In this document: one piece after another, positions 38,233-40,210 of the stretch
Position numbering within the stretch: the first letter of the stretch is position 1
How the letters are laid out: each line of letters opens with the position of its first letter
Assembly (NCBI GenBank): GCA_029007985.1
Contig: JAQXIW010000022.1
Span: 1 to 64,000, forward strand
DNA from: Oscillospiraceae bacterium
Lineage (GTDB): Bacteria; Bacillota; Clostridia; Oscillospirales; Ruminococcaceae
Direction of reading: 5' to 3'
Length of the DNA stretch: 64,000 bases
The notes under the pieces: generated by a model
The model's input: the letters and a program-made list of their open reading frames with translations, nothing else
What the model was told of the DNA's origin: nothing
Database searches by the model: none
Translations under genes and position numbers: made by a program

Positions 38233-38249
38233 CAAAAAAATAAAATAAA

Positions 38250-38292
38250 CAGTATATAACACTTGACAACTGTTATATACTGTTATATACTG
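38250..38292 (+). promoter_or_regulatory. GntR/ABC operon promoter with three operator half-sites
   Basis: TTGACA (38263-38268)-17-TATACT (38286-38291); CAGTATATAACA (38250-38261) is the exact reverse complement of TGTTATATACTG (38271-38282), which recurs at 38281-38292. Confidence 0.88.
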
Positions 38293-38313
38293 TTTACAAA
38301 AGAGGTGGTAATT

Positions 38314-38697
38314 CTGGATATAATATTAAACAACAACTCTATGGTGCCCATCTACGAACAGGTGGCAGAGCAGATAAAAAAGAATATCATCAGCGGTAAA
38401 CTGAAAGCCGACGATGTTTTGCCGTCGGTGCGCACGCTGTCAAACGATTTGAAAATCAGCGCGCTGACCGTCAAAAAAGCCTATGACTATTTGGAGGAAC
38501 AGGGCTTTGTTGTCACCGTTCACGGCAAGGGCACATATATCGCGCGGACAGACACGGCTCTTGCACGGGAGGCAAGGTTGCGCAGGTGCGAGACAGAGTT
38601 AAAAAAGCTTGTGGATTTTGCAAAGGATACGGGCATATCAAAAAAGGACTTAATTGATTTATTTGAATTAGAGATGGAGGAATGGACAGATGATTGA
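38314..38697 (+). CDS. GntR-family (YtrA subfamily) regulator, apparent CTG start
   Basis: (L/M)DIILNNNSMVPIYEQVAEQIKKNIISGKLKADDVLPSVRTLSNDLKIS; RBS gaggtgg upstream. Confidence 0.88.
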   Translation: MDIILNNNSMVPIYEQVAEQIKKNIISGKLKADDVLPSVRTLSNDLKISALTVKKAYDYLEEQGFVVTVHGKGTYIARTDTALAREARLRRCETELKKLVDFAKDTGISKKDLIDLFELEMEEWTDD

Positions 38698-39535
38698 ACT
38701 CAATTCATTCAAAAAGATTTATTCGGATTTTGAGACCGATATAACGCTTTCGGTAAAAAAGGGCGGAGTTACGGGTATCGTCGGCAGAAACGGCGCCGGC
38801 AAATCCACAACCATAAAAGCAATTCTGGGGCTTATCGAAACAGACGGCGGCGATGTAAAAATATTCGGTAAAAACCCTAAAAAGTTGACGGCAAAAGACA
38901 AAATGAAAATAGGCGTTACAATGCCGGATTCCTTTTTCACCACCGAGCTGAACATTAAAGACATTGTCGACATTATGGCGGCGGGATATGAGGATTTTGA
39001 CAAAGCAAAGTTTTTGGAAAAATGCAAAAAGAACAACCTTCCTATTGACAAGAAGGTGGCGCAGTTTTCAACCGGTATGACGGCAAAATTGAAAATGCTG
39101 ATGGCTCTTTCACACAACGCGGATTTACTTATTCTTGACGAGCCTACATCCGGTCTTGATGTAGTCGCAAGAGGCGAAATGTTGGATGAAATCAGAGATT
39201 ATCTCGGTCAAAAACCGGACAGAACCGTTCTGATCTCCTCACATATTTCGTCGGATTTAGAGGACTTTTGCGACGATATCTATATGATTCACAACGGCAA
39301 GATCATCATTCACGAGGACACCGACAAGCTGAAAGGCGAATACGGAGTTCTGAAACTGAGCGACGAAATGTACGACAAAATCGACAAACAGTATATTCTG
39401 AAAAAGAAAAAAGAAAACTTCGGCTGGTCGTGTTTCACCAACGAGAGAAAATACTATGCTGAAAACTACCCGGACATAATAATTGAAAAGGGCAGCATAG
39501 ACGATATGATTATTCTTATGTCGGAGGCAAAGTAA
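38690..39535 (+). CDS. ABC transporter ATP-binding protein
   Basis: GIVGRNGAGKSTTIKAILG; FSTGMTAKLKMLMAL; LLILDEPTSGLD. Confidence 0.95.
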   Translation: MIELNSFKKIYSDFETDITLSVKKGGVTGIVGRNGAGKSTTIKAILGLIETDGGDVKIFGKNPKKLTAKDKMKIGVTMPDSFFTTELNIKDIVDIMAAGYEDFDKAKFLEKCKKNNLPIDKKVAQFSTGMTAKLKMLMALSHNADLLILDEPTSGLDVVARGEMLDEIRDYLGQKPDRTVLISSHISSDLEDFCDDIYMIHNGKIIIHEDTDKLKGEYGVLKLSDEMYDKIDKQYILKKKKENFGWSCFTNERKYYAENYPDIIIEKGSIDDMIILMSEAK

Positions 39536-39536
39536 A

Positions 39537-40178
39537 ATGAAGGGCTTGATTGTAAAGGATATAAAAATAATATCAAAAAGAGCGAAGTTTATTCTGTTAT
39601 TCACTCTTATCGGCGTATATATGGCTTATACCGCCTCTGCTGAATTCGGCGTTGGATATATAAGTATGCTGGGTGTTATGATGTCATTGGGCACAATCAC
39701 CTATGACGAATACAATAACGGCTATCCGTTTTTGATGACATTCCCATGTACGATAGAGGAATATGTCAGAGAGAAGTATATACTCTGTATTGCATCAAAT
39801 GCTGTTTTTGTTCTTATCGGAACGGTGGCAATATCGGCGGTAAAAACGGTTACGGGCAACGGCTCGGAACTCGGCGAAATTCCGCTTGCGGCATTGGTAG
39901 TATTTATAGCAGTCTGCTTTGTGGCGTTTATTTCAATACCGGTAGAAATTAAATTCGGCGGCGAAAAGAGTAAAACCGCACTCTTGGTACTCTACGGAAT
40001 AGTTGTGATTGCCGTGGCAGCGGTAGGATATGTAATACCGAAAAGCTTAGACATTGCGGCTTTGATAGACAGTATACCGATATCGGCGGGAATAATAGCC
40101 GGTATTGTACTCGGCACAGCCGTGACGGCTATATCATACATTATCTCGGTAAAAGAGATGTATAAAAAATTCGTATAA
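39537..40178 (+). CDS. ABC-2 type permease subunit
   Basis: MKGLIVKDIKIISKRAKF, six TM-like segments; follows the ATPase. Confidence 0.85.
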   Translation: MKGLIVKDIKIISKRAKFILLFTLIGVYMAYTASAEFGVGYISMLGVMMSLGTITYDEYNNGYPFLMTFPCTIEEYVREKYILCIASNAVFVLIGTVAISAVKTVTGNGSELGEIPLAALVVFIAVCFVAFISIPVEIKFGGEKSKTALLVLYGIVVIAVAAVGYVIPKSLDIAALIDSIPISAGIIAGIVLGTAVTAISYIISVKEMYKKFV

Positions 40179-40180
40179 AA

Positions 40181-40210
40181 ATAAGCGGGTGCACAACCCG
40201 CTTTATTTAT
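40181..40210. terminator. Bidirectional terminator
   Basis: AAGCGGGT-GCACA-ACCCGCTT flanked by A-run and T-run. Confidence 0.88.

Follow-up and report, generated by a model that had tools for sequence, protein, structure and literature searches.

PmtR of Staphylococcus aureus binds and represses its own promoter at a 36-bp site that covers the transcription start, and the peptides that its exporter exports cause its release (PMC5080381). The operators of the YtrA subfamily were described by Suvorova et al. (2015) as long palindromes with GT and AC approximately 17 bp apart; the regulons of the YtrA groups are mostly a single ABC operon, and extra half-sites at 7-12 nt are found in 6 groups (PMC4494728). 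YtrASa of Sulfolobus acidocaldarius represses its own operon and recognises a 14-bp core, with secondary half-sites aiding binding (PMC6746942). Self-repression of ABC exporters by YtrA-type proteins is known, and what is new here is another such operon with a fairly ordinary switch. In the 64-kb window (the whole stretch of DNA analysed), we describe a candidate operator that very probably belongs to a self-repressed exporter operon, is bound by the YtrA/PmtR-type protein that the operon encodes and is vacated in response to a signal.

The candidate operator immediately precedes a conserved operon of three tightly spaced genes: gntR, an ABC ATPase gene and an ABC permease gene. Pfam GntR and NCBIfam matches and an alignment of gene starts define gntR (38314..38697, + strand) as encoding a YtrA-type (PmtR-like) regulator. 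It is followed by genes for a PmtA-like ABC ATPase (38690..39535, +; profile matches and linkage) and an ABC-2 type permease (ABC2_membrane_5; 39537..40178, +; profile match and linkage), and a terminator scan places a terminator-like hairpin at the operon end (40183..40203, +, with matches on both strands). In 69 of the 70 relatives, the ATPase gene adjoins gntR on its 3' side; a permease was matched in 64 of the 70, several of the others being short contigs. The start codon of gntR appears to be CTG (38314-38316), which aligns with ATG (62), GTG (3) or TTG (2) in 67 relatives; the Shine-Dalgarno-like sequence AGAGGTGG (38301..38308, +) sits 5 nt upstream of this codon. A GTG in the same frame, at 38305, is less probable as the start.

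The initial annotation had called the first open reading frame a YtrA-type GntR regulator, and this was borne out, as the protein has a GntR fold, is of the YtrA/PmtR type and heads an ABC-transporter operon. Its N-terminal winged helix-turn-helix scores 58.4 bits against PF00392 (cut-off 27). The regulator has 127 residues, approximately 50 of them after the helix-turn-helix, giving the short C-terminal domain that marks the YtrA subfamily, and the gene shares its operon with ABC transporter genes, as is also characteristic of that subfamily; the nearest solved relatives are regulators of 121-134 residues, such as Lmo2241. The best NCBIfam models were PmtR for gntR and PmtA for the ATPase, both scoring well under their cut-offs (NF047563, 106.7 vs 200 bits; PmtA, 208.7 vs 350). 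By these profile scores, the regulator is of the YtrA type and not a PmtR equivalog; PmtR equivalogs control a phenol-soluble modulin exporter.

Upstream of gntR, a near-consensus promoter was identified from the sequence and a promoter scan: a -35 element TTGACA (38263..38268, +), of which TTGA is nearly invariant in 67 operators, and a -10 element TATACT (38286..38291, +), with a 17-bp spacer and a score of 11/12, the top promoter-like match of the region. The 12-bp inverted arms that had been reported around TTGACA are present as described, with arm 1, CAGTATATAACA, at 38250-38261 and arm 2, TGTTATATACTG, at 38271-38282, and the reported third copy, again TGTTATATACTG and overlapping both arm 2 and the -10 element, was found at 38281-38292 (arm 3). 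The complementarity of arms 1 and 2 extends to 14 bp (38248-38261 and 38271-38284). That of arms 1 and 3 extends to 16 bp, giving an outer inverted repeat of TAAACAGTATATAACA (38246..38261, -) and TGTTATATACTGTTTA (38281..38296, +). Further exact copies of the 12-mer were absent from both the 64-kb window and the 1.63-Mb genome.

When the 170-bp region was shuffled with dinucleotide content preserved, any 12-bp inverted repeat arose in 72 of 20,000 shuffles, and a 12-mer in three copies on either strand in 16 of 20,000, a rarity which argues that the repeats did not arise by chance. It could be proposed that chance or slippage in an AT-rich promoter produced them, since the 10-bp direct repeat CTGTTATATA could come from a duplication and the rest of the genome has one-mismatch copies only at background level; we consider this barely credible given the shuffling result and the conservation of the repeats in 66 further operons with regulators approximately 47-64% identical to that of the window.

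These operons were obtained by scanning species genomes for the regulator, which gave 80 loci, including 70 close relatives (approximately 47-64% identical) from Lachnospiraceae, Erysipelotrichaceae, other Firmicutes and one Treponema. Inclusion in the alignment, alongside the window, required a match to at least 28 positions of a 45-bp template, which 66 of the relatives had; relatives were picked by regulator similarity, the template was taken from among them, and genome sampling was uneven. Conservation of the half-sites upstream of related regulators, which had been set as a test of the proposed operator, was seen at 66 of the 70 gntR loci, and the element is almost identical letter for letter, with the 67-operator consensus ACAGT ATATA ACA(C/G)T TGACA ACAGT TATAT ACTGT TATAT ACTGT. 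This 45-bp array is conserved in all 67 operons, window included, and its flanks are unconserved. Within the promoter spacer, CTGTT is invariant (67/67), and the 17-bp spacer has a mean conservation of approximately 1.5 bits per position, compared with approximately 0.3 bits in the ten bases from -15 to -6. Spacer bases of this kind are normally not read by the sigma factor, and a bound protein is therefore the natural cause of their conservation.

The four loci left out of the alignment (L117-L120) carry a rearranged version of the operator. They are near-identical operons of ruminant Lachnospiraceae with a longer leader, in which clusters of ACTGT/GTGTT units lie approximately 100 bp from the gene. 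A rearranged operator was also seen upstream of gntR at L138, where the regulator is 41% identical: two ACTGT units lie 10 bp apart, with an inverted ACAGT 20 bp beyond, so that the 10-bp phase is retained.

The half-sites had been described as spaced by 21 bp and then 10 bp, and this geometry needs revision: the basic unit is the pentamer ACWGT, of which five exact or near matches start at exact 10-bp steps (38249, 38259, 38269, 38279 and 38289), in an array that spans the -35 element, the 17-bp spacer and the -10 element. Half-site 1 is ACAGT (38249..38253, -; positions 0-4 of the conserved 45-bp array). Half-site 2 is an imperfect ACACT (38259..38263, -) that fills the gap between arms 1 and 2, and the relatives have ACAGT or ACACT there in approximately equal numbers (position 13, C:31 G:31). 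Half-site 3, ACTGT in the window (38269..38273, no strand assigned), is the one at which relatives diverge most from the window, most of them having ACAGT (position 22, A:54 T:11). Half-site 4, ACTGT (38279..38283, +), lies inside the promoter spacer, with the invariant CTGTT at alignment positions 31-35, and half-site 5, ACTGT (38289..38293, +), overlaps the -10 element. Under a loose criterion, all five were present in 40 of the 67 operators, the remainder being without the leftmost one or two half-sites or without the rightmost.

Maxima of two-fold symmetry across the 67 operators fall at centre sums of 24, 34, 44, 54 and 64, and this 10-bp phasing backs the earlier proposal that the half-sites occupy one face of the DNA. 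The emphasis that the initial annotation placed on arms 1 and 2 as the key pair was not upheld: they are not the best conserved, and the middle copy is usually altered in relatives, where ACAGT replaces ACTGT and the AT stretch is degenerate, with the outer-right half-sites kept. Between ACAGT at 38249 and ACTGT at 38269, the GT and AC centres are 17 bp apart, which matches the long palindromic operator typical of the YtrA subfamily. Arms 1 and 2 fit this known spacing, and several overlapping pairs with equal spacing can be drawn; positions that mirror each other seldom depart together, and such cases are only partly complementary and too sparse to choose an arm pairing. We suggest, tentatively and with the balance somewhat against it, that several regulator dimers stack cooperatively side by side on the five phased half-sites and coat one face of the promoter. 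Such a stack would switch more sharply than the usual YtrA operator, a single site of two half-sites, and species differences in the number of half-sites would tune its steepness.

Autoregulation, the simple reading offered by the initial annotation, is supported by half-sites in 66 of 70 relatives that, in 40 genomes, occur essentially there alone, and it is the best reading because the half-sites are conserved upstream of gntR and essentially nowhere else. Overall, a five-half-site operator of a single-target, autorepressed exporter operon is well supported, and within this reading we infer that the protein contacts the DNA directly and cooperatively and that it represses instead of activating, as well as what induces the operon. 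The YtrA/PmtR-type protein encoded by the operon would bind, as dimers, the ACWGT half-sites every 10 bp along one DNA face and, lying across the -35 element, spacer and -10 element, would deny RNA polymerase access to the promoter. The repressor would then be freed by a signal, probably an exporter substrate or a membrane-active compound if PmtR is a guide, and regulator and exporter would be switched on together. Conservation and linkage alone do not give the sign of regulation, and the regulator could activate its own operon from this site; this is improbable, as the site covers the -35 element, spacer and -10 element of a near-consensus promoter, a position suited to blocking, and PmtR and YtrASa are both repressors.

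When one mismatch was allowed, matches to the 16-mer grouped at one place, this promoter, in each of the 40 orthologue-bearing genomes, with 4 stray matches in total vs 11 for a reversed-pattern control. Linkage to gntR would be incidental if another, unlinked regulator bound the site, but this is very unlikely, since the motif accompanies this gntR family in many genera, whose genomes hardly contain it at other places. The near-single target of the autoregulatory reading fits reported YtrA regulons, which are mostly one ABC operon. The exact 16-mer was found in 7 of 391 sampled genomes of the class (the window's own included), directly upstream of a gntR homologue in 5 of the 7 and with no gntR nearby in the other two. 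Further targets in the window's own genome were considered and rejected, as the 16 one-mismatch copies are at background (14 in the reversed-pattern control); a pair on contig C8 was likewise discarded as AT-rich sequence without 10-bp phasing. The only other GntR-domain protein of the genome is encoded by a 469-codon frame elsewhere. In IMG/VR, the operator pattern has a single match, which lies in AT-rich sequence containing TAACTGT-type repeats, and a literature text search for the 12-mer returned nothing beyond a paper on an Entamoeba snoRNA and a primer for bceRS deletion.

In a maximum-likelihood tree of a subset of relatives, the window regulator falls inside the operator-bearing clade (support 100/97) and groups with Lachnospiraceae and Erysipelotrichaceae homologues; same-genus homologues fall elsewhere. 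No orthologue of the window gntR was found in same-genus genomes, and the window operon was absent from all 14 same-genus cysS loci searched (cysS plus approximately 1.5 kb of flank). Horizontal acquisition of the operon is likely from these sequence comparisons. Two of these same-genus loci (L181 and L182) carry a different YtrA-type gntR and ABC ATPase, 35% identical, beside cysS, and distinct operons of this type therefore share one neighbourhood. Plasmid homologues with the same operator occur in Roseburia and C. difficile. On the 4.9-kb C. difficile plasmid L187 (1832-2520), the homologous gntR with its conserved operator precedes the beginning of an ABC ATPase gene, seemingly cut off, after which comes an aminoglycoside-resistance gene.

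The array, which dozens of gut bacteria retain, provides a clear candidate operator for a family of small exporter regulators common in gut Firmicutes, and its motif is a marker of this operon family in unannotated genomes. The natural series of three, four and five phased half-sites offers a probe of DNA occupancy by YtrA-type proteins.

Among the described systems, S. aureus PmtR is likewise a small YtrA-type GntR protein (41% identical) encoded by the first gene of an ABC-exporter operon, and the pmt promoter, read from a plasmid record, also has repeated ACTGT/ATTGT units. These lie 9 bp apart, compared with 10 bp in the window, and pmtR-pmtABCD has two ATPase/permease pairs where the window operon has one. 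YtrASa is similarly a repressor of its own operon with secondary half-sites beside a core; it differs in being archaeal, in its 32-bp site with weak outer half-sites, in having a second target gene and in its partner gene, which encodes a membrane protein, whereas the window has a gntR-ABC ATPase-permease set. The approximately 17-bp GT/AC distance of the YtrA operators of Suvorova et al. corresponds to window half-sites 20 bp apart, but most of those operators consist of one site to which weaker boxes are added, whereas in the window five half-sites make up a continuous 45-bp array.
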